Of a stretch of DNA of 64,000 bases, positions 26,737 through 49,911 are shown piece after piece. Both the position numbers and the translations under genes were made by a program. The notes beneath the pieces were generated by a model. It was not told the origin of the DNA. It saw only the letters and a list, made by a program, of their open reading frames with translations, and did not search any database. This DNA comes from Myxococcus landrumus (GTDB lineage Bacteria > Myxococcota > Myxococcia > Myxococcales > Myxococcaceae): positions 2,740,001 to 2,804,000 of the forward strand of contig NZ_CP071091.1 in the NCBI RefSeq assembly GCF_017301635.1. Direction: 5' to 3'. Position 1 is the stretch's first letter, and each line of letters starts with the position of its first letter.

Positions 26737-27284
26737 AGCACCTGCGTCCAGCGCTGCTCGCCGTGCTGAGCCTGGCGTACCCGCTGCTCGTGTACAGCGG
26801 GCTGGGCCGGTTCGAGCCTCGCTGGATGGCGCTTCCCCTGGTGGGCATGGCCGTCATCCGCGCCGTGGCCACCCGCGAGCGCGTCTGGCTGGTCACCGCC
26901 GCGGGCGCGCTGGTGCTCGCGGGCACCAGCCTGCTCGGCAACCATGCCCTTCCGCTGAAGCTCTATCCCGTCCTCGTGAACGTGATGTTGCTCTCCGTCT
27001 TCGCCACCAGCCTCGTGTCCCCGCCCAGCGTCATCGAGCGCCTGGCCCGGCTGCGCGAGCCGGAGCTTCCTCCGTCCGGCGTGGCCTACACGCGCAAGGT
27101 GACGCAGGTGTGGTGCGCGTTCTTCGTGCTCAACGGCGGCATCGCGCTGGCCACGGCGGTGTGGGGCAGCGACGCGACGTGGGCGCTGTACAACGGGCTC
27201 ATCTCCTACGGGTTGATGGGCGTGCTCTTCGCCGGAGAATGGCTGGTGCGCCGGCGCGTGAGAGCAGGCCACGCCCATGGCTGA
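26733..27284 (+). CDS. Aryl polyene operon integral membrane protein (COG4648-like)
   Basis: 183 residues from GTG 26733. About five hydrophobic segments (LLAVLSLAYPLLVYSGLG, RWMALPLVGMAVIRAVA, VWLVTAAGALVLAGTSLLG, LYPVLVNVMLLSVFATSL, LISYGLMGVLFAGEWLV). Matches in size and place the conserved membrane protein between the ACPs and the ligase in aryl polyene clusters. Function unknown; perhaps anchors the synthesis complex to the membrane. GTGA overlap with the ACP gene and 8-bp overlap with the ligase gene. Confidence 0.75.
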   Translation: MKHLRPALLAVLSLAYPLLVYSGLGRFEPRWMALPLVGMAVIRAVATRERVWLVTAAGALVLAGTSLLGNHALPLKLYPVLVNVMLLSVFATSLVSPPSVIERLARLREPELPPSGVAYTRKVTQVWCAFFVLNGGIALATAVWGSDATWALYNGLISYGLMGVLFAGEWLVRRRVRAGHAHG

Positions 27285-30646: not shown

Positions 30647-32177
30647 GCGTGCGGTCCGGTTCGATGGGAGCCGGCTCGCCATTGAAGATGTGTCCTCGCT
30701 GTCGCGCCGCGAGCGCGAAGCCGAGCTGGGCACCACCCCCGACTTCCGCCAGCGAATCACTCGCGGCGCGGAGTTCCTGGACCGGCTGCTCGCCGAGGAC
30801 GGGAACATCTACGGCGTGACGACGGGGTATGGCGACTCCTGCACCGTCTCCATTCCGCCGGAGCTGGTGGCCGAGCTGCCGCACCACCTCTACGCGTACC
30901 ACGGCATCGGCGCGGGCCGGTTCCTCACGCCCGAGGAGACGCGCGCGGTGCTGGCCACGCGACTGGCCTCGCTGACGCAGGGCGTGTCGGGCGTGGGGCT
31001 GGGATTGCTCACGCAGCTCGAGCAGCTCCTGCGCCTGGATATCCTCCCGCTCATCCCGGCCGAGGGCTCGGTGGGCGCCAGTGGTGACCTGACGCCCCTG
31101 TCCTATGTGGCGGCGGTGCTCTGCGGAGAGCGCGAGGTGTGGCACCGCGGCGAGCGTCGGCCCGCGGCGGAGGTGCTGGCGCAGCACGGCCTGAAGCCCC
31201 TGAAGCTGCGGCCGAAGGAAGGCCTGGCCATCATGAACGGCACGTCGGTGATGACGGCGCTGGCGTGCCTGGCCTGGGAGCGCGCGGAGTACGTGAGCCG
31301 GCTGGCCGCGCGCCTCACCGCCTTCAACGTCGTGGCGAGCGCCGGCAACGCGCACCACTTCGACGAGGCGCTGTTCGCCCTCAAGCCTCACGTGGGCCAG
31401 CAGAGGGTCGCCGCGCGCCTGCGCCAGGACCTGGCCACCGAGCGCCCCAGCCGCAACGAGCAGCGCCTCCAGGACCGCTACTCGCTGCGCTGCGCGCCGC
31501 ACGTCGTGGGAGTGCTCGAGGACGCCCTGCCCTTCTTCCGCGCGCAAATCGAGAACGAGCTCAACAGCGCCAATGACAACCCGCTCATCGACCCGGACAG
31601 CGAGCGGGTGCTGCACGGGGGCCACTTCTACGGGGGCCACATCGCCTTCGCGATGGACGGCCTGAAGAACGCGGTGGCCAACGTGGCGGACCTGCTGGAC
31701 CGGCAGTTGGCGCTGCTGGTGGACACCCGCTACAACCACGGCCTGCCCTCCAACCTCTCCGGGTCCACGGGCCCGCGCGCGGCCATCAACCACGGCCTCA
31801 AGGCGGTTCAAATCAGCGTCTCCGCGTGGACGGCGGAGGCCCTCAAGCAGACGATGCCCGCGTCCGTCTTCTCCCGCTCCACCGAGTGCCACAACCAGGA
31901 CAAGGTGAGCATGGGCACCATCGCCGCGCGGGACTGCCTGCGCGTGCTGGAGCTCACCGAGCAGGTGGTGGCCGCGATGCTCATCGCCGCGCGGCAGGGA
32001 ATCTCCCTGCGCCGCCGCGTCACTCAAGAAACGGGACTGTCGCCGTCTCTCGCATCGATGCAGGCCGACCTGGAACAGCGCATCCCGTTGGTGGTGGAGG
32101 ACCGGGCGTTGGACAAGGAGCTGCAAGGGTTGCTGGGGGCCATCCGCGCCCGGGAATGGAGGCTCTATGAAGCCTGA
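30621..32177 (+). CDS. MIO-type aromatic amino acid ammonia-lyase (HAL/PAL/TAL family)
   Basis: 518 residues. The self-forming MIO cofactor triad is Ala153-Ser154-Gly155 (GSVGASGDLTPL); the catalytic Tyr64 lies in IYGVTTGYG; ENELNSANDNPLI and the GNAHHFDEALF segments match the lyase fold. It deaminates an aromatic amino acid to an arylacrylate such as p-coumarate or cinnamate, the natural aryl starter for the ligase at 27277. The specificity segment (LPHHLYAYHGIGAG) differs from the standard His, Phe and Tyr signatures, so substrate is not assigned; tyrosine is likely from the pathway. Overlaps both neighbours. Confidence 0.9.
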   Translation: MSPPGIKSERAVRFDGSRLAIEDVSSLSRREREAELGTTPDFRQRITRGAEFLDRLLAEDGNIYGVTTGYGDSCTVSIPPELVAELPHHLYAYHGIGAGRFLTPEETRAVLATRLASLTQGVSGVGLGLLTQLEQLLRLDILPLIPAEGSVGASGDLTPLSYVAAVLCGEREVWHRGERRPAAEVLAQHGLKPLKLRPKEGLAIMNGTSVMTALACLAWERAEYVSRLAARLTAFNVVASAGNAHHFDEALFALKPHVGQQRVAARLRQDLATERPSRNEQRLQDRYSLRCAPHVVGVLEDALPFFRAQIENELNSANDNPLIDPDSERVLHGGHFYGGHIAFAMDGLKNAVANVADLLDRQLALLVDTRYNHGLPSNLSGSTGPRAAINHGLKAVQISVSAWTAEALKQTMPASVFSRSTECHNQDKVSMGTIAARDCLRVLELTEQVVAAMLIAARQGISLRRRVTQETGLSPSLASMQADLEQRIPLVVEDRALDKELQGLLGAIRAREWRLYEA

Positions 32178-32586
32178 GCTCCACCACGAAATCGAGCTGA
32201 CGCCGCCCTTCCATGACATCGACCTGATGGAGGTCGTCTGGCATGGGCACTACGTGAAGTACCTGGAGCTGGCGCGGTGCGCGCTGCTGGCGAAGTTCAA
32301 CTACGACTACCCGCAGATGCTGGCGTCCGGCTTCGCGTGGCCCGTGGTGGACATGCGGCTGAAGTACGTGCAGCCCGCGCTCTACGGGAAGACGCTGAAG
32401 ATTCGCGCCGAAATCACGGAATGGGAGAACCGGCTGCGAATCGACTACCTGATTCGAGACGCCGCCACGGGCCGCAAGGTGAACCAGGCCCACACCATCC
32501 AGGTCGCCGTGTCGTTGGCCACCAAGGAGTTGCAGTACGTCTGTCCGCCGGTGCTCTGGCAGCGGCTGGGGGTGAAGCCCGAATGA
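32167..32586 (+). CDS. 4HBT-type hot-dog thioesterase
   Basis: 139 residues. The 4-hydroxybenzoyl-CoA thioesterase pattern is clear: FHDIDLMEVVWHGHYVKYLE, with an Asp in the position of the catalytic acid, then PVVDMRLKYVQPALYG. Aryl polyene operons carry one such enzyme (ApeK-like), probably for chain release or editing of misloaded ACP. It overlaps the lyase gene by 11 bp and the next by 4 bp. Confidence 0.85.
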   Translation: MKPELHHEIELTPPFHDIDLMEVVWHGHYVKYLELARCALLAKFNYDYPQMLASGFAWPVVDMRLKYVQPALYGKTLKIRAEITEWENRLRIDYLIRDAATGRKVNQAHTIQVAVSLATKELQYVCPPVLWQRLGVKPE

Positions 32587-33191
32587 GACGCGTGCTCTTG
32601 CTCGTGACGATGCTGGTGGGAATGACCGCCAGCGCCCAGGACGTGGTGACGCAGGTCCGCGCCCGGCTGGCGGACGTGCCCCTCTTGCGCGGCGGCTTCG
32701 AGCAGAAGAAGACGGTGTCGGGCTTCAAGAAGCCCCTCGTCTCTCGCGGCGTGTTCCTCCTCGCCCGCGAGCAGGGCGTCCTCTGGGACACGCAGACGCC
32801 CTTCGCCTCCACGCTCACCCTCACGCGCAAGTCGCTGAGCGCACAGCAGGGCTCGGGGGCCGCGGCCTACCATCTGGACGCGAGCAAGGAGCCGGGGCTC
32901 GCCGCGGTGAACGAGGTGATGTTCGCCCTGCTGTCGGGAGACGTCGCGGCGCTGTCCAAGCGCTTCCGCGTCGAGGGCTCGCTGGAGGGCGCGGAGGGAT
33001 GGAAGCTGACCCTCACGCCGACGGACGCGGGCCTGGTGCGCGTGTTCCGCGTCATCCACCTGGAAGGCGACAAGTACGTGCGGCAGGTCCGGCTGGAGGA
33101 GGCGCGCGGCGACGTGAGCGTCATCCAGTTCGACAAGCTGGCCCAGACACCGTCCCCCACTGAAACGGAAGCCCAGCGCCTTGCGAAGTAA
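32583..33191 (+). CDS. LolA-like periplasmic carrier protein, aryl polyene export
   Basis: 202 residues from ATG 32583, with signal peptide MRRVLLLVTMLVGMTASAQ. The mature part has LolA features: RGGFEQKKTVSGFKKPLVSRG, GVLWDTQTPFASTLTL, FRVIHLEGDKYVRQVRLEE. LolA-like proteins in these clusters are thought to ferry the lipid-linked polyene across the periplasm to the outer membrane. It overlaps the MMPL exporter gene by 11 bp. Confidence 0.85.
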   Translation: MRRVLLLVTMLVGMTASAQDVVTQVRARLADVPLLRGGFEQKKTVSGFKKPLVSRGVFLLAREQGVLWDTQTPFASTLTLTRKSLSAQQGSGAAAYHLDASKEPGLAAVNEVMFALLSGDVAALSKRFRVEGSLEGAEGWKLTLTPTDAGLVRVFRVIHLEGDKYVRQVRLEEARGDVSVIQFDKLAQTPSPTETEAQRLAK

Positions 33192-35478
33192 GTGGGCCAT
33201 TCTCTGGTTGCTCGTGGTGCTCGCCGTGGGCGCGCACCAGGTGTGGTTCTGGCTCTCCGCGCGCCTGGACACCGACGTCCTCGCGCTCCTGCCCGAGGAT
33301 GAGCAGGCGCCCGAGGTCGGCGCCGCCACGCGCAAGCTCGCGGACGGGGCCAGCCGGGAGCTGGTGTTGCTCGTGGGCGCACCGGACTGGGAATCCGCCC
33401 AGCGCGCCGCGGAGGTCGCCCGCGAGGAGCTGTCGCGGGACCCGTCGCTCCTGAAGCCCTCCGCCCTGGATGCGTCGTCGCTGGACGTGGCGCTGGAGCT
33501 GTATCGCCCCTATCGCGACAGGCTGCTCACGCCCGCGCAGCGCGAGTGGTTGACGCGCGCGACGGCCGACGAGCTGGGCGGCACCGCGCTCATGAAGCTC
33601 TACCAGCCCGCGGGCCCCCGGCTCACGGACTGGGAAGCGGACCCGCTGGGCCTGTGGCCCGACTGGTGGGCGGCCCGCGCGGCGGAGAGCACCGCGCGTC
33701 CTCGCGATGGACGGCTGTGGCTGTCCGGCGAGGGACGGGAGTGGGTGCTCCTCGCCTTCCACAGCCAGGTCTCCGCCTTCGCGCTGGGCGCGGACGGACG
33801 CATCACCGGCGTGGTGGAGAGAGCGCGCGCGGCCGTGACGGCGGCGGTGCCGGGAAGCCGGATGGTGGTCGCGGGCGTTCCGCTCTACGCGGAGGCCGCC
33901 GCGTCCCAGGCCAGCGACGAGATGTCCACCATCGGCATCGGCTCGATGGCGGCCGTGCTGCTGCTCGTGTGGCTGACCTTCCGCTCGGTGCGCCCCATCC
34001 TCCTGGTGGGTGTGTCGCTGGTGATTGGCTGCGCGGTGGCCATCAGCGTCACCGCCCTGGTCTTCGACCGCGTCCACCTGCTCACGCTCGTCTTCGGCTC
34101 CAGCCTGGTCGGCGTGGCGGAGGACTACGGCTTCCACTACTTCGCCGCGCGCCAGGGCAAGCCCCCATCGGAGCGCGGGGCGCTCATGCGGGGCCTGCTG
34201 CCGGGCATGGTGATGGCGCTGCTCACCAGCGTGGTGGCGTACCTGGCGCTGGGCGTCGCGCCCTTCCCCGGCCTGCGGCAGATGGCGCTGTTCTCCGCCA
34301 CGGGTCTGGTCGGCGCGTTCCTCACGGTGGCCTGCTGGTTCCCTCACCTCGACACCGGCGCGCTGCCGGTGACGCCCTTCGCGCAGCGCTTCGCGACGTC
34401 GCTGGCGCGCTGGCCCCGCTTCACCTCCACGCGTGCCTGGTGGACGGGGACGGCGGTGCTCGCGCTGTTCATCCTGGGCGGCCTGTGGCGCCTGAAGACG
34501 CGCGACGACGTGCGCCAGCTCCAGGGTGCTCCGGCCCACCTCATCGCCGACCAGCGGGAGCTGGGGCGACTGCTGGGCCTGCCCAGCCCCGCGCAGTTCT
34601 TCCTCGTGGGAGGACAGGACGACGAGCAGGTGCTGGAGCGCGAGGCGAAGCTCAAGGAGCGGCTGGACATGCTCGTGGCGGACCGGATGCTCACGGGCTA
34701 CCGCGCCGTCTCGGACTGGTTGCCCAGCGCCGAGCAGCAGCGCGCCGACGCCCGCCTGAGCGCGAGAGCGGAAGCCCAGGCGGTGGCGGCGGTGGCCCAG
34801 GCCACGGGCGAGGCCCCTACCCGCGCGAGCTTCGCGGACGGCGTGCTCACGCCCGAGCAGCTCCTCGCCAGCCCCGCGTCGGCGGCCATCCGGCAGCAGT
34901 GGCTGGGCACGATGGGAGACCAGCACTTCAGCATCGTCATGCTGCGCGGGCTCAATGCCCCGTCGCTGCTCCCGCACCTGGCCGAGGCCGCGCAAGGACT
35001 CGAGGGCGTGCGGTGGGTGGACAAGACGCAGGAGATTTCAGGGCTCCTGCAGCGCTACCGCCAGCTCATGGGCGGGCTCATCGTGCTGGGCTATGTCGCC
35101 GTGCTGCTCCTCTTGGTGACGCGCTTCCGGCGGCAGGCGTGGCGGGCGTGGCTGCCCACGGTGGTGGGCACGCTCTTCACGCTGGCCGTCTTCGGCTGGG
35201 TGGGCGAACCGCTGCAGCTCTTCAGCGTCCTGGGCCTGATGCTCCTCTTGGGCATGGGCGTGGACTACGGAATCTTCATGCTGGAGCATCCTGGAGAGGG
35301 CTCCGCATGGCTCGCGGTGGCGCTCGCCGGCGTGAGCACCCTCCTCTCTTTTGGACTCCTGGGACTCTCGGCCACTCCGGCCCTGCGCTCCTTTGGACTG
35401 ACCATGCTGCTGGGCGAGGTGGCCATCTGGCTGCTGACACCCTGTTGCAGACTGCCTCCGGGCAAGGACGTGTCGTGA
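33181..35478 (+). CDS. MMPL/RND-type exporter, aryl polyene operon
   Basis: 765 residues from a TTG start at 33181, inside the LolA-like gene. Two repeats of one membrane helix, a large periplasmic loop and about five helices: the first ends near AVACWFP, the second near VAIWLLTP. MMPL motifs GSSLVGVAEDYGFHYF and LLLGMGVDYGIFMLEH carry the conserved Asp-Tyr-Gly in the membrane. It would extract the lipid-linked polyene from the inner membrane using the proton motive force and pass it to the LolA-like carrier. GTGA overlap with the halogenase gene. Confidence 0.9.
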   Translation: MRSKWAILWLLVVLAVGAHQVWFWLSARLDTDVLALLPEDEQAPEVGAATRKLADGASRELVLLVGAPDWESAQRAAEVAREELSRDPSLLKPSALDASSLDVALELYRPYRDRLLTPAQREWLTRATADELGGTALMKLYQPAGPRLTDWEADPLGLWPDWWAARAAESTARPRDGRLWLSGEGREWVLLAFHSQVSAFALGADGRITGVVERARAAVTAAVPGSRMVVAGVPLYAEAAASQASDEMSTIGIGSMAAVLLLVWLTFRSVRPILLVGVSLVIGCAVAISVTALVFDRVHLLTLVFGSSLVGVAEDYGFHYFAARQGKPPSERGALMRGLLPGMVMALLTSVVAYLALGVAPFPGLRQMALFSATGLVGAFLTVACWFPHLDTGALPVTPFAQRFATSLARWPRFTSTRAWWTGTAVLALFILGGLWRLKTRDDVRQLQGAPAHLIADQRELGRLLGLPSPAQFFLVGGQDDEQVLEREAKLKERLDMLVADRMLTGYRAVSDWLPSAEQQRADARLSARAEAQAVAAVAQATGEAPTRASFADGVLTPEQLLASPASAAIRQQWLGTMGDQHFSIVMLRGLNAPSLLPHLAEAAQGLEGVRWVDKTQEISGLLQRYRQLMGGLIVLGYVAVLLLLVTRFRRQAWRAWLPTVVGTLFTLAVFGWVGEPLQLFSVLGLMLLLGMGVDYGIFMLEHPGEGSAWLAVALAGVSTLLSFGLLGLSATPALRSFGLTMLLGEVAIWLLTPCCRLPPGKDVS

Positions 35479-36704
35479 AGGTAGAGAAGACCGAAGTCGT
35501 CATCATTGGTGCGGGCCCGTCAGGCTCGGTGGCCGCGGGACTCTTGCGCAAACAGGGCCGTCAGGTGCTGATTCTGGAGCGCGAGCAGTTCCCGCGCTTC
35601 TCCATCGGCGAGAGCCTGCTCCCGCAGAGCATGGAGTACATCGAGGAAGCGGGGATGTTGCAGGACGTCGTCGAGGCGGGCTTCCAGTACAAGAACGGCG
35701 CGGCCTTCGTTCGCGGCACCCGGTACACGGAGTTCGACTTCCGGGAGAAGTTCACGCAGGGCTGGGGCACGACGTACCAGGTGCAGCGCGCGCACTTCGA
35801 CCACGTGCTGGCGCTCGCCGCCGAGCGCAAGGGCGCCACGCTGCGCTTCCGCCACACCGTCGAGTCCGTCGACGTCTCGGGCGCCACCCCGGAGCTGACC
35901 GTGCGCTCGCCCGAGGGCGAGACGTACCGCGTCCAGGCCCGCTTCCTGCTCGACGCCAGCGGCTTCGGCCGCGTGCTGCCCCGGCTCCTCTCGCTGGAGA
36001 CGCCGTCGAACTTCCCAGTGCGCGGCGCGCTCTTCACCCACGTGGAGGACCGCGTGGCCCCGGGCACCTTCGACCGGACGAAGATTCGCATCACCACGCA
36101 TCCCAAGCACGTGCACGTCTGGTACTGGACCATCCCCTTCTCCAACGGCCGTTGCTCGTTGGGCGTGGTGGCCAAGCGCGAGTACCTGGAGCAGTTCCAG
36201 GGCACGGAGACCGAGCGGCTCAAGGCCATCGTCGCGGAGGACCCGGAGCTGACCAAGCTGCTCAAGGACGCCGTCTGGGACACGCCCGCGCGCGCCATCA
36301 CCGGCTACGCGGCGAACGTGAAGTCCCTGTGGGGCAACGGCTTCGCGCTGCTGGGCAACGCGGGGGAGTTCCTGGACCCTGTGTTCTCCTCGGGCGTCAC
36401 CATCGCCGTGAAGTCCGCGAGCCTCGCGGCCCGGTGCATCGCCCGCTCGTTCGCGGGAGAGACGGTGGACTGGGAGCGCGACTACGCGGTGCCGCTCAAG
36501 TCCGGCGTGGACACGTTCCGCACCTTCGTCGAGTCCTGGTACGAGGGCGGCTTCCAGGACGTCATCTTCCACCCCAACTCCTCGCCCGAGATTCGCAAGA
36601 TGATCTCCTCCATCCTCGCGGGCTACGCCTGGGACAAGGAGAACCCCTTCGTGGCCGACAGCAAGCGCCGGCTCGGAGTGCTCGAGAAGCTGTGCGCGCC
36701 CTGA
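35475..36704 (+). CDS. Flavin-dependent halogenase-type FAD monooxygenase, aryl polyene operon
   Basis: 409 residues from GTG 35475. The FAD Rossmann loop is VVIIGAGPSGSVAAGLL; LDASGFGRVL is the second flavin motif. Halogenase hallmarks are present: the W-x-W-x-I-P motif at 216-221 (WYWTIP) and Lys73 in FQYKNGAAF, matching the catalytic lysine of carrier-protein and phenol halogenases such as PltA and CmlS. Related genes occur in xanthomonadin clusters, where the pigment is brominated. It should halogenate the aryl head while ACP-bound. A geranylgeranyl-reductase-like dehydrogenase is the alternative, but it would lack the WxWxIP motif. Confidence 0.82.
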   Translation: MKVEKTEVVIIGAGPSGSVAAGLLRKQGRQVLILEREQFPRFSIGESLLPQSMEYIEEAGMLQDVVEAGFQYKNGAAFVRGTRYTEFDFREKFTQGWGTTYQVQRAHFDHVLALAAERKGATLRFRHTVESVDVSGATPELTVRSPEGETYRVQARFLLDASGFGRVLPRLLSLETPSNFPVRGALFTHVEDRVAPGTFDRTKIRITTHPKHVHVWYWTIPFSNGRCSLGVVAKREYLEQFQGTETERLKAIVAEDPELTKLLKDAVWDTPARAITGYAANVKSLWGNGFALLGNAGEFLDPVFSSGVTIAVKSASLAARCIARSFAGETVDWERDYAVPLKSGVDTFRTFVESWYEGGFQDVIFHPNSSPEIRKMISSILAGYAWDKENPFVADSKRRLGVLEKLCAP

Positions 36705-37258
36705 TTGCCAGCCTGGCCCTGCTCGGCCTTGCTTCCTGCGCCACCCCAGCGCCACGACCCGTGGCGCCGGAGGTGGCGTTGCCGTCGCTCGCGCTGTCGC
36801 CCTCGGACTTCGGCGGCAGTGTGAGCCTGTCGCAACAACTGAGCTTCGCGCACGAGATGGACCCGGGTGGGCCGCGTTCGCTGGAGGCCCTGGTGGAGAT
36901 CGACGCCTCGGCGGTGCGGCTGGCCGGGTTCGCGTTGAGCCAGCGGGTCATCACCCTCCAGTGGGATGGCGCGCGGCTGGAAGAGGAGCGCGACGCGCGG
37001 GTGCCCGCGCAGTTCCAATCCCGGACCGTGATTCGGGACCTCCAGCTCGTCTACTGGCCCGCCGCCACGGTGCGCGCGGCGCTGCCCGAGGGCTGGACGC
37101 TGGAGGACTCCCCGGGACAGCGCGTGCTGCGCCAGGGGGACAAGGAATGGCTATTGGTGCGTTATGCTGGCCAACCCCCTTGGGTCGGCCGCGCGGAGCT
37201 GGTCAACCTGGCGGAGCACTACCGGCTGACCATCGAGTCACGCCTCTCGGAGGAATGA
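36692..37258 (+). CDS. DUF3261-type lipoprotein, aryl polyene operon
   Basis: 188 residues from GTG 36692, 13 bp inside the halogenase gene. Lipobox LLGLASCAT. The mature part (SLSQQLSFAHE, LVEIDASAVRLAGFALSQRVITLQWDG, LVYWPAATVRAALPEGW, EHYRLTIESRL) fits the DUF3261 proteins that accompany LolA- and MMPL-type genes in aryl polyene clusters. Its similarity in role to LolB, the outer-membrane acceptor, is an inference. The ketosynthase gene begins 4 bp after it. Confidence 0.78.
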   Translation: MRALIASLALLGLASCATPAPRPVAPEVALPSLALSPSDFGGSVSLSQQLSFAHEMDPGGPRSLEALVEIDASAVRLAGFALSQRVITLQWDGARLEEERDARVPAQFQSRTVIRDLQLVYWPAATVRAALPEGWTLEDSPGQRVLRQGDKEWLLVRYAGQPPWVGRAELVNLAEHYRLTIESRLSEE

Positions 37259-37262
37259 GCCC

Positions 37263-38444
37263 ATGTCTCCGCCCGTCTTCTTGAACGACCTGGGCCTGGT
37301 GTGCGCCCTGGGTGTGGGCCGCCACGAGGTCGCCCAGGCCCTCTTCGGTGACCAGCCCACCGGCGTGGCCCCGAGCCCCGACTTCGCGGACCGCACGCTC
37401 CACGTCGGGCACGTCACCGCGCCGCTCGTCTCCACGGACGCGCTGCCGGTGCCGCTGCGCAGTCGCAACAACGCACTGCTGCTCACCGCGCTGGAGCAGA
37501 TCCGCCCCGCGGTGGACGACGCCCTGCGGCGATATGGCCCGGAGCGCGTGGCCGTGGTGTTGGGCACCAGCACCTCCGGCATCGGCGAGAGTGAAGCCGC
37601 CATCTTCACGCATGAGGCCTCGGGCCAGCTCCCCGGTCACTTCGACGTGCGGCAGCAGGAGCTGGGCTCTCCCGCGCTGGCCCTCACCCACGTGCTGGGC
37701 ACACTGGGTCCCTCGTTCGTCATCTCCACCGCGTGCTCCTCCAGCGCCAAGTCCCTGGCCACCGCGGCGCGGCTGCTCCGCACGGGGATGGCCGATGCCG
37801 TCATCACCGGTGGCGCGGATGCGCTGTGCCGCTTCACCGTGGCGGGCTTCTCGTCGCTCGACTCGGTGAGCGACGCGCGCTGCAACCCGATGAGCGTCCA
37901 CCGCAAGGGCATCAACATCGGCGAGGCCGCGGCCCTGTTCCTGATGACCCGCGAGCCGGGGCCGGTGCACCTCGCGGGCTGGGGCGAGTCCTCGGACGCC
38001 CACCACCTCTCCGCGCCCGAGCCGGGCGGCCGAGGCGCCATCATCGCCATGCGGACCGCCCTGGAGCGCGCGGGCATCGCTCCGGGCGACGTGGGCTACG
38101 TCAACCTGCACGGCACCGCGACGCCCCAGAACGACGCGATGGAGAGCCGCGCCGTGCAGGCGCTCTTGGGCAATGGCGTGCCGTGCAGCTCCACGAAGCC
38201 GCTCACTGGCCACACGCTGGGCGCGGCGGGGGCGCTCGAAGCCGCGCTGTGCTGGCTCACCCTCACGGACGAGGCCCACGGGCGGCTGCCGCCCCACTGG
38301 TGGGATGGCGAGGCGGACCCATCCCTCCCCGCCCTCTCCCTGGTGAAGCCTGGGACGGCGTTGGGCCAGCCTCCGCGCTATGTCCTGAGCAACTCGTTCG
38401 CCTTTGGCGGCAGCAACGCCGCGCTCCTTCTGGGAAGGGCCTGA
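37263..38444 (+). CDS. Beta-ketoacyl synthase, aryl polyene elongation (ApeO-like)
   Basis: 393 residues. The active-site triad is Cys158 (STACSSSAK), His283 (NLHGTAT) and His317 (KPLTGHTLGAAG). It condenses malonyl-ACP with the growing chain. In E. coli the homologous ApeO works as a heterodimer with the chain-length factor ApeC, here 24697-25425. The stop shares one base with the next start (TGATG). Confidence 0.9.
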   Translation: MSPPVFLNDLGLVCALGVGRHEVAQALFGDQPTGVAPSPDFADRTLHVGHVTAPLVSTDALPVPLRSRNNALLLTALEQIRPAVDDALRRYGPERVAVVLGTSTSGIGESEAAIFTHEASGQLPGHFDVRQQELGSPALALTHVLGTLGPSFVISTACSSSAKSLATAARLLRTGMADAVITGGADALCRFTVAGFSSLDSVSDARCNPMSVHRKGINIGEAAALFLMTREPGPVHLAGWGESSDAHHLSAPEPGGRGAIIAMRTALERAGIAPGDVGYVNLHGTATPQNDAMESRAVQALLGNGVPCSSTKPLTGHTLGAAGALEAALCWLTLTDEAHGRLPPHWWDGEADPSLPALSLVKPGTALGQPPRYVLSNSFAFGGSNAALLLGRA

Positions 38445-38908
38445 TGCGCACGCCCATCACCTTCGACATCTCCGAGATTGTCCCCCACGCCGACCGCATG
38501 CGGCTCATCGACCGCGCGGTGGAGGGTGACGAGGAGAGCCTCGTCGCCGAAGTGACGATTCGCGAGGACTGCCTGTTCCAGGAGTCCGGCACCGTGGGCG
38601 GCTGGGTGGGTATCGAGTTCATGGCACAGGCCATCGCGGCCTACGCGGGCTGGCGGCAGCGCCTTCGCGGGGAGCCCCAGCCCCTGGGATTCCTGCTGGG
38701 CACGCGCAAGTACGAGTGCCACCGCCCCACGTTCAAGGTGGGCGAGCACCTGCGCATCGAGGTCCGCCGGCAGTTCTGGACGGACAATGGGATGAGCCAG
38801 TTCGACTGCACCCTGGGGATTGAGGGAGAGACGGTGGCCACGGCGGCGCTGACGGTGTTCCAGCCTCCGGCCTCGTTTGACGTGACGAAGGTGGGCAAGG
38901 ATGAGTGA
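38444..38908 (+). CDS. 3-Hydroxyacyl-ACP dehydratase, aryl polyene pathway (ApeP-like)
   Basis: 154 residues, hot-dog fold: EIVPHADRMRLIDRAVEGD and VGGWVGIEFMAQAIAAYAGWRQ, where FabA/ApeP enzymes place the catalytic His and Glu. It removes water from the beta-hydroxyacyl chain in each cycle, probably as a heterodimer with the hot-dog domain fused to the ligase (27277-28971). Overlaps the ketoreductase gene by 8 bp. Confidence 0.85.
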   Translation: MRTPITFDISEIVPHADRMRLIDRAVEGDEESLVAEVTIREDCLFQESGTVGGWVGIEFMAQAIAAYAGWRQRLRGEPQPLGFLLGTRKYECHRPTFKVGEHLRIEVRRQFWTDNGMSQFDCTLGIEGETVATAALTVFQPPASFDVTKVGKDE

Positions 38909-39632
38909 GAAGACGGTGCTGGTGACGGGCTCGAGCCGAGGCATCGGCCGCGCCATTGCCCTGCGGCTGGCGAAGGATGGCTTCGACGTGGTGGTGCACT
39001 GCCGCTCGAAGGTGGAGGAGGCGGAGGCGGTGGCCGCTCAAATCCGTGAGCAGGGCCGAGCCTCCCGCGTCCTGCGCTTCGACGTGGCCGACCGCGCGGA
39101 GACGGAGCGGGTCCTCGCCTCGGACCTCGAGGCGCACGGCTGCTACTACGGCGTGGTGTGCAACGCGGGCATCGCCCGAGACAACGCCTTCCCCGCCATG
39201 CCCGCAGAGGACTGGGACGCGGTGATTCACACCAACCTGGACGCGTTCTACAACGTGCTCAACCCCCTCTGCATGCCGCTGGTCCGCAGGCGCAAGCCCG
39301 GGCGCATCGTCACGCTGGCTTCCGTCTCCGGCCTCATCGGGAACCGGGGCCAGGTGAACTACAGCGCGGCGAAGGCGGGCATCATCGGCGCGACGAAGGC
39401 GCTGGCGGTGGAGCTGGCCAGCCGGAGCATCACGGTGAACTGCGTGGCGCCGGGGCTCATCGACACGGAGATGGTGGAGCCCCACGTCGTCGAGGAGGCG
39501 CTGAAGATGATTCCGGCCCGGCGCATGGGCAAGCCCGAGGAGGTCGCCGCCGCGGTGAGCTTCCTGATGAGCGAGGATGCGGGCTACGTCACGCGGCAGG
39601 TCATTTCGGTGAACGGGGGACTGTTCGGATGA
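38901..39632 (+). CDS. 3-Oxoacyl-ACP reductase, SDR type (ApeQ/FabG-like)
   Basis: 243 residues. Short-chain dehydrogenase motifs in order: NADPH loop VTGSSRGIGRAIAL, NAGIARD, ASVSGLIGNRGQVNYSAAKAG (Ser, Tyr-x3-Lys catalytic set) and CVAPGLIDTEMV. It reduces the beta-keto group in each round of polyene extension. Overlaps the dehydratase by 8 bp and the next ketosynthase by 4 bp. Confidence 0.92.
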   Translation: MSEKTVLVTGSSRGIGRAIALRLAKDGFDVVVHCRSKVEEAEAVAAQIREQGRASRVLRFDVADRAETERVLASDLEAHGCYYGVVCNAGIARDNAFPAMPAEDWDAVIHTNLDAFYNVLNPLCMPLVRRRKPGRIVTLASVSGLIGNRGQVNYSAAKAGIIGATKALAVELASRSITVNCVAPGLIDTEMVEPHVVEEALKMIPARRMGKPEEVAAAVSFLMSEDAGYVTRQVISVNGGLFG

Positions 39633-40867
39633 AGCGGGTCGTCGTCACGGGTGTGGGTGCCCTGAGTCCCCTGGGCCATGACTGGCCTCAGGTGGAGGCT
39701 CGGCTGAAGTCGCTGCGCAATGCCGTGCAGGTCATCGAGGACTGGAAGCAGTACGACGGGCTCAATACCCAGGTGGGTGCTCCCGCCGCGCCCTTCGAGC
39801 TGCCGCCGCAGACGTACTCACGCAAGACGATGCGCGGCATGGGCCGGGTGGCGCTGCTGGCGACGCGCGCCAGTGAGCTCGCGCTCGTCGACGCGGGGCT
39901 GCTGGGAGACCCGCTCCTGTCGAGCGGGAAGATGGGCGTGTCCTACGGCTCGTCCACGGGCTCTCCGCCCGCCATCGCCGACTTTGGCCGGATGCTGATG
40001 GCGAAGTCGACCGAGGGCATCACCGCCACGTCCTACGTGCGGTCCATGTCCCATACGGCCGCGGTGAACATCGGCGTCTTCTTCGGCCTCACCGGGCGCA
40101 TCATCACCTCCTCGAGCGCTTGTACTTCCGGCAGCCAGGGCATCGGCTACGCCTACGAGGCCATCAAGATGGGCCGGCAGGTGGCGATGCTCGCGGGAGG
40201 CGCCGAGGAGCTGGACGCCACGGGCGCCGCGGTGTTCGACACCCTGTTCGCCACCAGCACGAAGAACAACGCCACCCCGGAGCTGACGCCTCGGCCCTTC
40301 CACGCGCAGCGCGACGGCCTGGTGCTGGGTGAAGGCGCCTGCACGCTGGTGCTGGAGGAGCTGGAGCACGCCCGGGCCCGAGGCGCTCGCATCTACGCGG
40401 AGCTGGTGGGCTACGGCACCAACAGCGACGGTCGGCACATCACCCAGCCCCACTCGGAGACCATGGCCCAGGCCATGCGGCTGGCCCTGGAGGACGCGGC
40501 GCTGGAGCCGGGCGTCGTCGCGTATGTGAATGCGCACGGCACGGCCACCGACACGGGCGACGTCGCGGAGAGCGCGGCCACGCACCAGGTGTTCGGTGAG
40601 CGGATGCCGATTTCATCCCTCAAGAGCTACATGGGCCACACCCTGGGCGCGTGCGGTGCGCTGGAGGCGTGGATGACCATCGAGATGATGCGGAGCGGCT
40701 GGTTCGCGCCCACGCTGCACCTGGACGCGGCCTCCGTGGACCCACGCTGCGCCCCGCTGGACTACGTGACAGGCGATGGACGAAGAATCGAGACCGAAGT
40801 CGTCATGTCGAACAACTTCGCCTTCGGCGGCATCAACACGTCGTTGATCTTCCGCCGGTGGCACTGA
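39629..40867 (+). CDS. Beta-ketoacyl synthase II type (ApeR/FabF-like)
   Basis: 412 residues. Active site Cys165 (TSSSACTSGSQGIG), His in NAHGTATDTGD and His in YMGHTLGACGAL. In E. coli the corresponding ApeR starts or extends the chain independently of the ApeO/ApeC pair. Eleven base pairs separate it from the last gene of the operon. Confidence 0.92.
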   Translation: MKRVVVTGVGALSPLGHDWPQVEARLKSLRNAVQVIEDWKQYDGLNTQVGAPAAPFELPPQTYSRKTMRGMGRVALLATRASELALVDAGLLGDPLLSSGKMGVSYGSSTGSPPAIADFGRMLMAKSTEGITATSYVRSMSHTAAVNIGVFFGLTGRIITSSSACTSGSQGIGYAYEAIKMGRQVAMLAGGAEELDATGAAVFDTLFATSTKNNATPELTPRPFHAQRDGLVLGEGACTLVLEELEHARARGARIYAELVGYGTNSDGRHITQPHSETMAQAMRLALEDAALEPGVVAYVNAHGTATDTGDVAESAATHQVFGERMPISSLKSYMGHTLGACGALEAWMTIEMMRSGWFAPTLHLDAASVDPRCAPLDYVTGDGRRIETEVVMSNNFAFGGINTSLIFRRWH

Positions 40868-40878
40868 CGGAGCACTCA

Positions 40879-41331
40879 ATGAAGAAGCCCCTGTTGCTGT
40901 CGCTGCTCGCGCTCACCGTGTCCAGCCCGGCCCTGGCGCGGGACACCGTCTACATGATTCCGCTCAAGTCGGTCCTGGAGATGCCCCAGGCCAAGGACAA
41001 GCTGGACGGCTCGGTGAAGTTCTACCTGGCGGGCTCGAAGACGCCCTCCGTCCAGGAGGAGCTGGGCTCGGAGACCTCCAACAAGAAGACCAACGGCGTG
41101 GGCAAGTCGGACGAGGAGGGCTGCAAGTGGGCCACCCTGTCGGCGCTGATTTCGCTCCAGGAAGGCGCCAAGAAGCGCGGCGCCAACGCCGTGGTCAACA
41201 TCGTCAGCTACTACAAGAAGAACGAGCTGCAGAACGCGACCGAAATCGAGTGCCACGCCGGCTCGTTCGTCGTGGGCGTCACGCTCAAGGGGACCTACGC
41301 GAAGGTCGCCGGCAAGGGTGGCGCGAAGTAG
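40879..41331 (+). CDS. Small periplasmic protein at the end of the aryl polyene operon
   Basis: 150 residues from ATG 40879 with signal peptide MKKPLLLSLLALTVSSPALA. The mature part is basic, with GSVKFYLAGSKTPSVQEELG, CKWATLSALISLQEGAKKRGANAVVNIVSYYKKN and a Cys pair. Proteins like this are commonly annotated excinuclease-like by error and recur at the end of xanthomonadin and aryl polyene operons. It may assist export or folding of the polyene machinery; the function is unknown. Confidence 0.72.
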   Translation: MKKPLLLSLLALTVSSPALARDTVYMIPLKSVLEMPQAKDKLDGSVKFYLAGSKTPSVQEELGSETSNKKTNGVGKSDEEGCKWATLSALISLQEGAKKRGANAVVNIVSYYKKNELQNATEIECHAGSFVVGVTLKGTYAKVAGKGGAK

Positions 41332-42829: not shown

Positions 42830-44431
42830 TCACCGGGTGCCGGTCGGCGCCAGGTCCAGTCCGTTCTTGCGGTGCAGCCGCTGGAGGAACTCGTGGTTGG
42901 TGGGCAAGTCCCTGAGCAGCGCCTGCTGCTGGAGCTTCACGCGCTGGAACGCCTCCTCCGCGTGCGCCACCGACGACGGCCGGTACTTCAGCGTCGTCAA
43001 CGGCTGCTCCGGCATCCACCCCATTCCCGACAACACGCAGTAGTAGCTGCTGTTCGTCCAGAAGTTCCGGAACTCCGTCTCGAAGTTCCCGTAGTACGCC
43101 TCTTCTCCCGACACAGGCATGTTCACCGTCAGCCCGGCCTTCCACGTCTCCAGCTTGTCCTTCAGCGCGTCCGAAATCTTCAAGTCATTCTTGTTCGCCA
43201 GCCAGAATGCCGTGTCGTCCCTCGACGACGTGAGGAAGTGCGCCTGCAGGAAGTCCCTCGTGTCGTCGAACATCATCTCAATCTCTCGATTGAACCGGTC
43301 CACCAGCACCGGGTTGAACCCCTTGTCTGGGAAGTGCTTCGCCAGTTGATAAATCGACGCCGTGATGAAGTAGATGCCCGTCGACTCCAGTGGCTCCACG
43401 AAGCACGACGCCAGCCCGATGCTCACGCAGTTCTTCACCCACGCCCGCCGGTTTCGTCCCACCCGGAAGCGGATGCGATTGAACGCTGTCTTCTCCGGGT
43501 CCAGCCCCCACTTCGCGGAGAACTCGCGGATGGCTTCATCTTGCGAGCAGAAGTCGCTCGAGTACACGTACCCCGTCCCGAAGCGCCCCAGCATCGGAAT
43601 CTTCCACATCCATCCGTGTTTCGACGCTATCGCCGACGTGTACGGCTCGATTCCGAACCGCGCATCATCATGCTCGATGGCCGTCGCCACCGCGCTGTTG
43701 CACAGCAGGTGGTCGCTCATGTCGAGGAATGGCTCTTCCATCGCCTGGTTGATGAGCAGGCCCCGGAAGCCGCTGCAGTCCACGAAGAGGTCTCCCGCCA
43801 GCACCCGGCCGCCTCGGGTGTGCAGCGCCTTGATGTGGCCCTCGGGCGTCTTCTCCACTGACGCCAGCTCGTCCACCACGTGCTTCACGCCCCACCCTGT
43901 CGACAGCCTCCTCAGGTAGTCCGCCACCAACTGCGCGTCGAAGTGCCACGCGTAGTTCACCGCGGGCTGTCCATCCCGGAACCTCGGCGCCAGCTTCGCG
44001 TCCATCATCGGCGGCTCGCGGTAGCACGCGTAATCCACCTGCTCGTCAGTCGTTGCCCGCCCCTCGTTGCGCAGCACCCAGTAGTGAGACAACGGGATGT
44101 TGTCCACGTTCGGGATGAGTCCGAACGCGTGGTAGAAGTGATTGTCCGGCACCCCCGGCTCCTTCTTGCGCCAGTTGACGAACTTCACCGCCGTCTTGAA
44201 GGCCGCGTTGCACTCGCGCATCCACTCGTCTTCCGGGATGCCCAGCCGGTCGAAGAAGACTCGCTGCAGGTTGGGGACCGTCGCCTCCCCCACCCCAATC
44301 CTCGGAATGGTGGCGGCCTCCAGCAGCGTCACCTGGACGGTCCCCTCGAAGACCTTCTGCAGGTAGGCCGCCGCCATCCACCCCGCCGTCCCGCCTCCCA
44401 GAATCACCACTTCACGAATCGCGGTGTCCAC
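42830..44431 (-). CDS. Tryptophan halogenase-family FAD-dependent halogenase, copy 1
   Basis: 533 residues from GTG 44431, preceded by GAGGAGGGGAC. Motifs at positions that match PrnA/RebH numbering: GGGTAGW (12-18), catalytic Lys79 ([10 protein letters not shown]), His101/Phe103, WMWKIP (274-279) and Glu346 (FVEPLESTG). The C-terminal Trp-clamp [15 protein letters not shown] is conserved, but Ser462 occupies the place of an Asn seen in PrnA and RebH. These enzymes use FADH2 and O2 to make hypohalous acid and chlorinate or brominate an indole. A flavin reductase is needed and is not encoded nearby. It is almost identical to the copy at 48310-49911. Confidence 0.93.
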
Positions 44432-44798: not shown

Positions 44799-45608
44799 AT
44801 GAGCCCACGCATGACTCGCTGCGTATTGCCTGGAGGGGTGGTCGTGGTGTTGCTGGCCCTGTGGGGGCTCGCGGTCCAGGCTGGCAAGGCGCCGTTGATG
44901 CCCTCGCCCTGGCAGGTCGTCGTGTCGCTGGGACAGTTGGCGGTGGATGGCCGCCTGGTGCGGTTCACGGTGGCATCCCTCTTCCGGGTGACGTGGGGGC
45001 TGTTGTCGGCGGGGGTCGTCGCCATCCCGTTGGGCATCTGGCTGGGCTGGTCACCCCGGGCCGAGCGGGCCCTGGGGCCGATGCTCCAGTTGCTGCGGCC
45101 CATCAGCTCGTTGGCCTGGACGCCGTTGGCCATTCTCTGGTGTGGCGTGGGTGACCTCTCCGCCATCTTCATCATCTTCATGGCCTGTTTCGGGCCGCTG
45201 ATGGTCAACACCCTCCTGGGGGTGCGTAAGGTGCTGTCCGTCCATCTCAACGCGGGCCGCAACTTCGGGTTGTCCACGCTGGGATTGATGAGACACGTCG
45301 TGTGGCCGTCCATCCTGCCGCAACTGCTGACAAGCCTGAGACAGACCCTGGGCGTGGCGTGGATGGTGGTGGTGATGGCGGAGATGATGGCTGTCAATTC
45401 GGGCCTGGGTTTCCTCATCCTGGATGCAAGGAACGCAGGCAATCGCTACGACCTGGTCGTGGCGGGCATGGTGCTGATTGGCGCCGTGGGGCTGGGGCTG
45501 GATGCGCTCCTGCGATGGATGGAGCGGATTCCCGCGTTGAGCTGGGGATTCCCGACGCCAGCCCCATCCATCAAGGCGTCTCGCATCCGCCTGGTGAGGA
45601 GCCCCTGA
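44799..45608 (+). CDS. ABC transporter permease 1 (nitrate/sulfonate/taurine type)
   Basis: 269 residues, about six membrane helices. The cytoplasmic coupling segment HLNAGRNFGLSTLGLMRHVVWPSILPQ is the EAA-loop pattern of SsuC/TauC/NrtB permeases. It is clearly paralogous to permease 2 (46412-47185): both contain LRPIS-LAW-P-AIL, NAGRNFGLS and RYDLVVAGM. The final ~20 residues (TPAPSIKASRIRLVRSP) are an extra tail. One base separates it from the ATPase gene. Confidence 0.9.
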   Translation: MSPRMTRCVLPGGVVVVLLALWGLAVQAGKAPLMPSPWQVVVSLGQLAVDGRLVRFTVASLFRVTWGLLSAGVVAIPLGIWLGWSPRAERALGPMLQLLRPISSLAWTPLAILWCGVGDLSAIFIIFMACFGPLMVNTLLGVRKVLSVHLNAGRNFGLSTLGLMRHVVWPSILPQLLTSLRQTLGVAWMVVVMAEMMAVNSGLGFLILDARNAGNRYDLVVAGMVLIGAVGLGLDALLRWMERIPALSWGFPTPAPSIKASRIRLVRSP

Positions 45609-45609: not shown

Positions 45610-46407
45610 GTGAGGCCCGCCAACACCGACACACGGATGTCCCAGCAAGCCCCGCGCCAGGTGGCTCTGAGCATCCACGACGTCCACGTCCGCTTCAACA
45701 CGCCCTCGCGTGAGCTGACCGTGCTGGAGGGTGTGAACCTGGCGGTGCACGAGGGTGAGTTCGTCTGTCTGTTGGGCCCCTCCGGCTGCGGCAAGTCCAC
45801 GCTGCTCAATGTCGTGGGAGGATTTCTCAAGCCCACCTCCGGCGAGGTGTTCTTCCGGGGAGAGCGAGTCGTGGGCCCGGACCCGCGCCGCATCTTCGTC
45901 TTCCAGGAGCGAGGTGTCTTTCCCTGGTTGACCGTCGAGGGGAACATCGCCTTCGGGCTGTTCAAGCTGTCCGAAGCGCAGCGGCGCGAGCGTGTGGCGC
46001 ACTACGTGAAAATGGTGGGACTGACGGGCTTCGAGCAAGCCTGGCCGCATGAGCTATCGGGAGGAATGAAGCAGCGCGTGGAGGTCGCCCGGGCGCTGGC
46101 GGCGAATCCCGAGGTGCTCTACCTGGATGAGCCCTTTGGAGCGCTCGACTCCATCACCCGGCACTCGATGCGCTCGGAGCTGCTGCGTTTGTGGGAGGCG
46201 GAGCGCAAGACGGTGCTCTTCGTCACCCACGACATCGAGGAGGCTTTGCAGCTCGCGGACCGGGTGGTGGTGATGTCGGCGAAGCCCGGGAAGGTTCGGC
46301 GCATCGTGGAGGTGGACGTTCCGCGGCCCCGGGACATCAGCTCGGCGCGCTACCTGGAGCTGCGGGACAGCCTGCTGGGGGAGATTGGTCTTGCCCACCA
46401 CATCTGA
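45610..46407 (+). CDS. ABC transporter ATP-binding protein (SsuB/TauB/NrtD type)
   Basis: 265 residues from GTG 45610, with ATG 45637 (MSQQAPRQVAL) as an alternative. Walker A LLGPSGCGKSTLLN, Q-loop VFQERGVFPWLTV, signature LSGGMKQRVEVARAL, Walker B EVLYLDEPFGALD and H-loop VTHDIEEAL. Drives uptake through the two flanking permeases. Related systems import nitrate, bicarbonate, sulfonates or other small anions; the substrate here is unknown. Confidence 0.93.
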   Translation: MRPANTDTRMSQQAPRQVALSIHDVHVRFNTPSRELTVLEGVNLAVHEGEFVCLLGPSGCGKSTLLNVVGGFLKPTSGEVFFRGERVVGPDPRRIFVFQERGVFPWLTVEGNIAFGLFKLSEAQRRERVAHYVKMVGLTGFEQAWPHELSGGMKQRVEVARALAANPEVLYLDEPFGALDSITRHSMRSELLRLWEAERKTVLFVTHDIEEALQLADRVVVMSAKPGKVRRIVEVDVPRPRDISSARYLELRDSLLGEIGLAHHI

Positions 46408-46411
46408 CCGG

Positions 46412-47185
46412 ATGCCCGTCGCGCGGCGCTCCGCGGAGTCCATCCTGTTGCCCGTGGCCACGCTGTTGTTGCTGGTGACGGCCTGGGTGGTGGCGGTGCG
46501 AGGGACGGGCACGAAGGTATTCCCTCATCCGATGCAGGTGCTGAACGGGGTGATGGAGCTGATGCGCAGTGGGGTGTTGCTCCGGTATGCCGCCGACTCG
46601 CTGCTGCGGGTGGGGATTGGCTTCGGGCTGGCCGTGTTGGTGGGGATGGTGTTGGGGATGATGATGGGGCTCTACCCCATGGTCGCCATCGCTCTGGGGC
46701 CGGTGGTGCAGTTCCTTCGACCCATCAGTCCCTTGGCCTGGGTGCCCATCGCCATCCTCTTCTTTGGTGTGGGAGACAAGGCCGCCGTCGCGCTCATCTT
46801 CCTGGCGGCGAGCCTGCCGCTGGCGCTGCACACCACGGGGGCAATGGCCACGGTGCCCGCCATCTACCTGAACGCGGGCCGCAACTTCGGTCTCTCCCCT
46901 CCCCGCCTCTTCTTCCACGTCCTGCTGCCCGCGGCGATGCCACAGTTGCTGGTGGGGCTGCGCATCGCGCTGTGGGTGTCCTGGCAGGTGGTGGTGGCGG
47001 CGGAGATGATCGCCGTCGACTCGGGGCTCGGGTACATGATCGTGGATGCTCGTAATGCGGGCAAACGCTACGACCTGGTGGTGGCGGGGATGTTGCTCAT
47101 TGGGGGAATCGGCCTGTTGCTGGACACGGGAATCCGGAAGATGGAGTCACTGCGCTGGGTGCGCTGGGGCTTTCGTGAGGAATGA
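46412..47185 (+). CDS. ABC transporter permease 2 (nitrate/sulfonate/taurine type)
   Basis: 257 residues from ATG 46412; an earlier TTG at 46385 overlaps the ATPase end and would add 9 residues. Six-helix SsuC-type permease with the EAA loop NAGRNFGLSPPRLFFHVLLPAAMPQ and the C-terminal VDARNAGKRYDLVVAGMLLIGG. Paralogous to permease 1, so the channel is probably a heterodimer. The binding-protein gene begins 27 bp downstream. Confidence 0.9.
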   Translation: MPVARRSAESILLPVATLLLLVTAWVVAVRGTGTKVFPHPMQVLNGVMELMRSGVLLRYAADSLLRVGIGFGLAVLVGMVLGMMMGLYPMVAIALGPVVQFLRPISPLAWVPIAILFFGVGDKAAVALIFLAASLPLALHTTGAMATVPAIYLNAGRNFGLSPPRLFFHVLLPAAMPQLLVGLRIALWVSWQVVVAAEMIAVDSGLGYMIVDARNAGKRYDLVVAGMLLIGGIGLLLDTGIRKMESLRWVRWGFREE

Positions 47186-47212: not shown

Positions 47213-48271
47213 ATGACAGGACAGACGGGGCGTATCGCCTGGGCCGTGACGGCGTGGTTGGTGGTGGTCTCCGGCCTGCACATGTGGCTCAACCTGGACT
47301 GGTCGTCGCTGCGCAACGAGTGGAAGACGGAGGAGACACGAAAGCTCAACGTCGCCTACATCCCAGTCACATGACACCTGGCCTGTCCGGTCACTGACTA
47401 CATCGCCCGCAACTCCCTGGATGACACGCTGTTCATTCCGAAAATGTTCCAGGGGTTTCCGGAGATCAAAGAAGCACTGATCTCCAATCGGATGCAGGCG
47501 GGGTTCTTGGTGGCCCCCATGGCCTTGGCCCTGCGGTCGCAGGGCGTGCCCATCAAGATTGTCTACTTGGGTCACCGCTACGGGAGCGCCGTGGTGGTGA
47601 GCAAGAACGGACCCGTGCGTCATGTGCCCGACCTGGTCGGGAAGACGGTGGCCGTCCCGAGCCGGTTCTCGGATGAGCGGCTCATCATCCTCAAGGCGCT
47701 CAAGGAGCACGGACTTCCCGCGTCGTCGGTCAAGCTGGTGGAGATGTCTCCTCCAGACGTGGCGGGAGCCTTGGCGGCGGGGGCCGTCGACGGCTTCTCG
47801 ATGGGGGAGCCGTACCCTTCACAAGCGGAGCTCGGCGGCTTCGGTCGAGTGCTCTTCCACGCGAAGGAGTACTGGCCCGACTACATGTCGTGTGTCCTGG
47901 TGGTGCGCGACGACATCATCAGCCGGAGGCCGCAGGCCGTGCAGGTGCTGGTGGACGGCATCGCGCGCTCGGGCCTCTGGTTGGACCAGGGACGCGCGGA
48001 GCGCGAGTACGCCGCGGAGTTCGTCGGGCGCTACTACTACAGCCAGCCGCCGGCGCTGCTGCGTCACGCGCTGTTGGAGCCCATCGACCGCGTGCAGTAC
48101 ACGCCCCTGGCGCCGCGTGAGGCGGACTTCAACCTGGTGCAGGACCTGATGCTCGAGCACGGACTGCTGAACCGGCGCATGGCGTTCGAGGAGTTCGTGG
48201 ACATTCAGTTCGCGGACAAGGCGCGGCACCAGACCGCGTGGAAGTACGCGCCCTGGTTGCTGGACGACTGA
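47213..48271 (+). pseudogene. SsuA/NrtA-like ABC substrate-binding protein, one in-frame TGA
   Basis: Reading from ATG 47213 (AGAGG upstream) gives an N-terminal membrane anchor (IAWAVTAWLVVVSGLHMWL), then RKLNVAYIPVT, TGA at codon 54 (47372-47374), then HLACPVTDYIARNSL and an intact binding-protein fold to the stop at 48271 (353 codons). The frame is otherwise open, so a single base separates it from a full gene. In homologs as I recall them, a Cys precedes the H-L-x-C-P-V-T-D motif, so TGA replaces a Cys codon. Explanations are a fresh nonsense mutation, a sequencing error, read-through, or selenocysteine. I found no convincing SECIS hairpin. An internal start at 47444 would lack the signal and first lobe. 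Confidence 0.75.
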
Positions 48272-48309: not shown

Positions 48310-49911
48310 TCACCCGGTGCCAGTGCGCACCAGGTCCAGTCCGTTCTTGCGGTGCAGTCGCTGGAGGAACTCGTGGTTGGTGGGCAAGCCCCGGAGCAGC
48401 GCCTGCTGCTGGAGCTTCACGCGCTGGAATGCCTCCTCCGCGTGCGCCACCGACGACGGCCGGTACTTCAGCGTCGTCAACGGTTGCTCCGGCATCCACC
48501 CCATTCCCGACAACACGCAGTAGTAGCTGCTGTTCGTCCAGAAGTTCCGGAACTCCGTCTCGAAGTTCCCGTAGTACGCCTCTTCTCCCGACACAGGCAT
48601 GTTCACCGTCAGCCCGGCCTTCCACGTCTCCAGCTTGTCCTTCAGCGCGTCTGAAATCTTCAAGTCATTCTTGTTCGCCAGCCAGAACGCCGTGTCGTCC
48701 CTCGACGACGTGAGGAAGTGCGCCTGCAGGAAGTCCCTCGTGTCGTCGAACATCATCTCAATCTCTCGATTGAACCGGTCCACCAACACGGGGTTGAACC
48801 CCTTGTCTGGGAAGTGCTTCGCCAGTTGATAAATCGACGCCGTGATGAAGTAGATGCCCGTCGACTCCAGCGGCTCCACGAAGCACGACGCCAGCCCGAT
48901 GCTCACGCAGTTCTTCACCCACGCCCGCCGGTTTCGTCCCACCCGGAAGCGGATGCGATTGAACGCTGTCTTCTCCGGGTCCAGCCCCCACTTCGCGGAG
49001 AACTCGCGGATGGCTTCATCCTGGGAGCAGAAGTCGCTCGAGTACACGTACCCCGTCCCGAAGCGCCCCAGCATCGGAATCTTCCACATCCATCCGTGCT
49101 TCGACGCTATCGCCGACGTGTACGGCTCGATTCCGAACCGCGCGTCGTCATGCTCGATGGCCGTCGCCACCGCGCTGTTGCACAGCAGGTGGTCGCTCAT
49201 GTCGAGGAACGGCTCTTCCATCGCCTGGTTGATGAGCAGGCCCCGGAAGCCGCTGCAGTCCACGAAGAGGTCTCCCGCCAGCACCCGGCCGCCTCGGGTG
49301 TGCAGCGCCTTGATGTGGCCCTCGGGCGTCTTCTCCACTGACGCGAGCTCGTCCACCACGTGCTTCACGCCCCACCCTGTCGCCAACCTCCTCAGGTAGT
49401 CCGCCACCAACTGCGCGTCGAAGTGCCACGCGTAGTTCACCGCCGGCCGTCCATCCCGGAACCGCGGCGCCAGCTTCGCGTCCATCATCGGCGGCTCGCG
49501 GTAGCAGGCGTAGTCCACCCCTTCATCGGGTGTCGCACTTTCTTCGTTGCGCAGCACCCAGTAGTGAGACAGCGGGATGTTGTCCACGTTCGGGATGAGT
49601 CCGAACGCATGGTAGAAGTGATTGTCCGGCGCTCCTGGCTCCTTCTTGCGCCAGTTGACGAACTTCACCGCCGTCTTGAAGGCCGCGTTGCACTCGCGCA
49701 TCCACTCGTCTTCCGGGATGCCCAGCCGGTCGAAGAAGACTCGCTGCAGGTTGGGAACCGTCGCCTCCCCCACTCCAATCCTCGGAATGGTGGCGGCTTC
49801 CAGCAGCGTCACCTGGACGGTTCCTTCGAAGACCTTCTGAAGATAGGCCGCGGTCATCCAGCCAGCCGTCCCACCTCCCAGAACCACCACTTCACGAATC
49901 GCGGTGTCCAT
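48310..49911 (-). CDS. Tryptophan halogenase-family FAD-dependent halogenase, copy 2
   Basis: 533 residues from ATG 49911, with the same GAGGAGGGGAC ribosome site as copy 1. All catalytic and flavin motifs are identical to copy 1 (Lys79, WMWKIP 274-279, Glu346, Ser462). Only about a dozen residues differ, clustered at 9-20, 94, 124-131, 155, 177 and the extreme C terminus (LDLVRTGTG against LDLAPTGTR). Active sites are the same, so the two probably share a substrate and differ, if at all, in dosage or regulation. Its upstream sequence is unique beyond ~55 bp. Confidence 0.93.

Follow-up and report, generated by a model that had tools for sequence, protein, structure and literature searches.

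A predicted selenocysteine residue in an ABC substrate-binding protein family of Myxococcota and Acidobacteriota

The window, that is, the whole stretch of 64,000 nucleotides analyzed here, belongs to the genome of the soil bacterium Myxococcus landrumus (contig NZ_CP071091.1, positions 2,740,001 to 2,804,000). It carries a four-gene ABC transporter operon in the order permease, ATPase, permease, binding protein. The binding-protein gene, the last of the four, contains one in-frame UGA. The features discussed below are the following, with positions counted in the window.

42830..44431, minus strand: flavin-dependent tryptophan halogenase (PF04820), left of the operon, a near-copy of the right one
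44799..45608, plus strand: ABC permease 1 (BPD_transp_1), by profile match; operon kept in relatives
45610..46407, plus strand: ABC ATP-binding protein; best NCBIfam match SaoA, below the cut-off
46385..47185, plus strand: ABC permease 2 (BPD_transp_1), by profile match; operon kept in relatives
47213..48271, plus strand: NMT1-like (PF13379) ABC substrate-binding protein with predicted Sec54; 352 residues, N-terminal transmembrane anchor, own stop TGA
47372..47374, plus strand: in-frame UGA, predicted Sec codon (residue 54), from UGA/Cys in homologs, dN/dS and the SelB correlation
47375..47419, plus strand: codons 55-69, candidate SECIS region, with reduced synonymous change in UGA genes, in which Pro59 is always CCG
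47384..47386, plus strand: Cys58, invariant partner (UxxxC), from homolog comparison
47891..47893, plus strand: Cys227, third conserved Cys, also Cys at column 227 of 3un6 and of the R. albus protein beside cooS
48310..49911, minus strand: flavin-dependent tryptophan halogenase (PF04820), right of the operon, by profile match

The frame that starts at ATG 47213 runs for 352 codons and ends at TGA 48269-48271, and its sole internal TGA is codon 54, in the context NVAYIPVT-TGA-HLACPVTDY. A preliminary description of this DNA had given 353 codons; its open frame with a single TGA at codon 54 stands, but the product has 352 residues and the gene also ends in TGA. Since TGA is also the terminator of the binding-protein gene, UGA would be recoded at codon 54 and not globally reassigned. 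A scan of the 64-kb window returned five sites with a TGA and coding signal on both sides, codon 54 included; two of the other four were compared with the gene list (41922 and 48312) and proved to be ordinary gene ends. The protein matches the PF13379 profile with 90.3 bits against a gathering score of 24.7. Its Cys/Sec positions are 54, 58 and 227 only, and all three are found again across the family, in UGA and Cys forms alike; the CxxxC-type spacing to Cys58 pointed out earlier is found in frame as UxxxC.

The two halogenases, near-identical proteins of 533 aa in the same orientation, bracket the operon as direct repeats of about 1.6 kb. Upstream, at 25418-41331 on the plus strand, lies an aryl-polyene-type cluster with genes for an acyltransferase, acyl carrier proteins, an AMP-ligase with an ApeI-like domain, an aromatic amino acid lyase, an MMPL exporter, a halogenase-like FAD enzyme and ketosynthases.

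The distribution of the UGA was traced across the family. The protein is encoded in 14 of the 96 genomes from the taxonomic family of the window genome, and within these 96 genomes a UGA at the same codon occurs in three near-identical copies, in six at about 69% identity and in one distant copy. Further copies came from a genome-contig scan and from searching 195 genomes of Myxococcota and 396 of Acidobacteriota. Once duplicate records had been merged, UGA stood at exactly codon 54 in 17 distinct genomes from two phyla, Myxococcota and Acidobacteriota, within the motif PVT-U-HLxCPV; these UGA forms span three subfamilies with identity down to about 36%. In the remaining family members examined, column 54 is Cys in 26 genomes (counted after the same merging) and Thr in two deep outgroup sequences, so that the alignment bears out the Cys that had been expected at this column. 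On the tree, the switches between Sec and Cys number at least 4-6, counted as label changes. Codon 54 aside, no UGA copy has its frame interrupted within the family domain.

Two records from this survey deserve separate mention. The sequence L060, flagged as having a TGA inside, was not counted: its TGA is at residue 310, not near the motif, and its column 54 is Asp. The record BNCN01000001.1 is titled 'Comamonas sp. KCTC 72670', but its selB coordinates match those of a genome from the window's genus (G066), and the name is probably wrong.

One reading of such a codon is a recent nonsense mutation or a miscalled base, leaving only a truncated protein from the internal ATG 47444. Under table 11 the UGA would terminate translation, and this ATG does open an ORF of 275 aa. 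The truncated form, however, would be without both the anchor and the pocket strand. In the gene itself the N-terminal anchor and the first strand are retained, and the comparison with three close relatives (dS about 0.28) showed no other stop or frameshift; dN/dS downstream of the UGA was 0.016, 0.025 and 0.068. Values in this range after the UGA argue that the protein is read through. The same UGA is carried by 16 further genomes of two phyla, with frames that are otherwise open, and, taken together with the strong purifying selection, this excludes a pseudogene or base-call error for practical purposes; the recurrence of the codon and the low dN/dS values far exceed what chance would give. 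The preliminary description was thus right to see an in-frame UGA in an otherwise intact ABC binding-protein gene, but its view that a nonsense mutation or sequencing error was equally possible cannot be kept.

If the codon is read through, then we can ask: What is inserted there? The genome of the window has a complete set of genes for selenocysteine incorporation, namely selA (561 bits), selB (299 bits, or 322.5 with its C-terminal piece), selD in its Cys form (386 bits) and selC, the tRNA-Sec, with anticodon UCA (65 bits). The search for selA, selB and selC proposed earlier therefore found all three, with selD in addition, and the case of a genome without selB did not arise. Across the family, selB exceeded the cut-off in 17 of 17 UGA genomes versus 18 of 26 Cys genomes (Fisher one-sided p = 0.011, only a guide, because the genomes are related and some of the selB-less Cys genomes are metagenome bins in which a few absences may be gaps). 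A complete Sec system is present in most of the genomes searched from the taxonomic family (84 of 96 with selB over the cut-off), though few of them encode this binding protein. In the window's genome no further selenoprotein was identified as a positive control: the formate dehydrogenase-like genes had no UGA, and no Sec genes were seen adjoining selA, selB, selC or selD.

Insertion of cysteine, or of another residue, by a suppressor tRNA would also give a full-length protein. The Cys that homologs have at the UGA column agrees with it, and a UGA-reading tRNA-Cys (selC*) exists in some deltaproteobacterial groups (PMC7609411). Against it, the tRNA-Sec of this genome has the anticodon UCA and is accompanied by selA, selB and selD, and the UGA genomes track SelB; we regard such suppression, for instance by a second UCA tRNA, as very unlikely. 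Decoding of the UGA as selenocysteine, giving a full-length ABC substrate-binding selenoprotein, is on the genomic evidence very probable. SelA, SelB, SelC and SelD of the genome would then read the UGA as Sec to produce a full-length, membrane-anchored binding protein, and Cys would replace Sec where SelB has been lost.

The signal that should direct this decoding is less clear. A canonical bSECIS hairpin was not found in the window's own gene or clade, where predicted hairpins were weaker than in synonymous shuffles, and a scan of the UGA and Cys genes with the bSECIS model and synonymous shuffles gave no enrichment overall (mean z +0.13 for UGA genes and -0.30 for Cys genes). This agrees with the earlier remark that only weak hairpins could be drawn after the UGA, and among the proposed checks that were run the SECIS prediction was the only one to give no support for Sec. 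RNAalifold on the UGA genes gave a weak result for the core and a strong one only for three sequences of subfamily 3, whose hairpin lies about 17-35 bases after the UGA with the loop AGUUG. At the level of codons, synonymous change over codons 55-66 in UGA pairs was 0.113 versus 0.215 overall, a value equally low in only 2.4% of windows, and the dip in Cys pairs was milder (0.294 versus 0.392). All 14 of the UGA genes use CCG for Pro59, the fifth codon after the UGA, versus 14 of 22 Cys genes, and among the 67 columns invariant in UGA genes this is the sole four-fold column without variation.

Selenocysteine in ABC binding proteins is already known from the Sao system, whose SaoX and SaoB (NF040735, NF040727) are likewise substrate-binding subunits with Sec, a NitT/TauT-type permease and an ATPase. 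Could the protein be one of these? Several of the better NCBIfam hits of the operon are Sao models (SaoX, SaoP and SaoA), and the SaoX model matches residues 84-247 of the window's protein. The equivalog cut-offs are nevertheless missed by far (SaoA 257.6 against 360, SaoP 148-153 against 295), and for SaoX the score of 61.7 bits against 300 refutes the identity. The SaoB model is not among the matches at E<=1. The Sec motifs differ as well, being UxP and CUxxT in SaoX and SaoB, as described in a review, versus UHLxCP here (UHLAC in the window's protein, where SaoB would have CUxxT). Identity with SaoX or SaoB is hence highly improbable.

The NMT1-like, SsuA, NrtA and TauA binding proteins (PF13379, TIGR01728) share the fold and domain, but the SsuA_fam score of 115 bits is below the cut-off of 163.5, and these relatives, where shown by alignment, are without the UHLxCP motif. 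The window's protein scores below the cut-off of every NCBIfam model, and the UHLxCP family is missing from the 119 prokaryotic selenoprotein families listed in 2026, which do include SaoX and SaoB. Because of this absence from the list and the score far under the SaoX cut-off, we have filed the protein as a predicted new selenoprotein family of the ABC binding-protein type, which may work like SaoX and SaoB without being either.

The AlphaFold2 model of the binding protein has a mean pLDDT of 94.3. In fold it is closest to PDB entry 3un6 (Z 38.2, rmsd 1.8 A over 286 residues), an ABC binding component from S. aureus crystallised 'with Zinc bound', and a sequence search of the PDB also placed this entry first (E 8.5e-43). 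In the alignment, both 3un6 and the Ruminococcus albus homolog beside cooS, a carbon-monoxide dehydrogenase gene, have His at column 54 and Cys at column 227. The 3un6 protein and the NitT/TauT binding proteins linked to Ni-CODH are thus alike in the fold and in Cys227, but differ in having His in place of Sec/Cys at column 54 and in lacking an equivalent of Cys58. Independently, a study of the genome context of Ni-CODH connects binding proteins of this kind with 3UN6 and puts forward metal import as their role (PMC6344411). The R. albus locus on plasmid pRUMAL02 (L061, 3974-8712), where the 3un6-like binding protein of a plasmid-borne ABC importer lies directly before cooS, fits this link. 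The Sec of SaoX and SaoB is itself thought to ligate metal (PMC13188914).

From the His54/Cys227 columns in the zinc-bound homolog and the proposal of that study, we infer that the binding protein may serve in an importer of soft metals or metal complexes, with a selenolate as ligand. Sec54, Cys58 and Cys227 would form a putative chalcogen-rich ligand site in the binding cleft and capture either a soft metal ion or a small molecule that contains metal or is thiophilic, and this cargo would be passed to the cognate two-permease ABC importer; Sec may increase affinity or on-rate relative to Cys. For the metal-ligand role of Sec54 in particular, the chances appear about even.

A different role for the same Sec residue, which leaves its decoding untouched, is that of a redox or covalent-capture receptor tied to the neighboring biosynthetic clusters, in which UxxxC forms a selenenylsulfide or binds an electrophilic natural product. 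In its favor, PF04820-type halogenase genes occur near the binding protein in 4 of the 14 genomes searched against 0.06 expected (a biased count, as is its p-value, since the link was noticed before the counting), and enediyne-type genes adjoin two UGA copies. The related folds MqnD, DszB and Thi5, which have a catalytic Cys/His in the corresponding region, are also among the structure matches. On the other side, the third invariant Cys, at 227, and the His/Cys pair of the zinc-bound homolog fit metal ligation, and no dedicated thiol reductase could be discerned among the listed neighbors of the operons. We consider a redox or capture receptor less likely than not.

The enediyne-type genes stand beside one copy in a Myxococcota and one in an Acidobacteriota genome (L098 1-8146 and L104 2-7125), where they comprise a ketosynthase/acyltransferase PKS, an UnbV/ASPIC repeat protein and DUF1702. 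Near other copies there are genes for P450 (judged from the sequence by eye), radical SAM, O-methyltransferase or PKS proteins.

A tie of the binding protein to secondary metabolism is plausible. A broader interpretation, which we offer tentatively and hold at somewhat less than an even chance, is a new Sec-dependent family of ABC importers in Myxococcota and Acidobacteriota, with a selenolate/thiolate site for cargo capture and not for redox catalysis. The cargo would be a soft metal, a metallophore or a thiophilic natural product that the adjacent halogenase, aryl-polyene or enediyne-type clusters make or use.

Most known selenoproteins are redox enzymes. The present protein would add to the known selenium-containing proteins an unlisted family with Sec very probable at a putative metal-binding site. 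Because the standard table-11 reading halts at the UGA, annotation can easily present this gene as one for a truncated protein. The alternation of Sec and Cys at one putative ligand position would also provide pairs of close relatives that differ naturally in Sec or Cys, such as Myxococcus with UGA and Citreicoccus with TGC/TGT, which may be used to learn what selenium adds to cargo binding.
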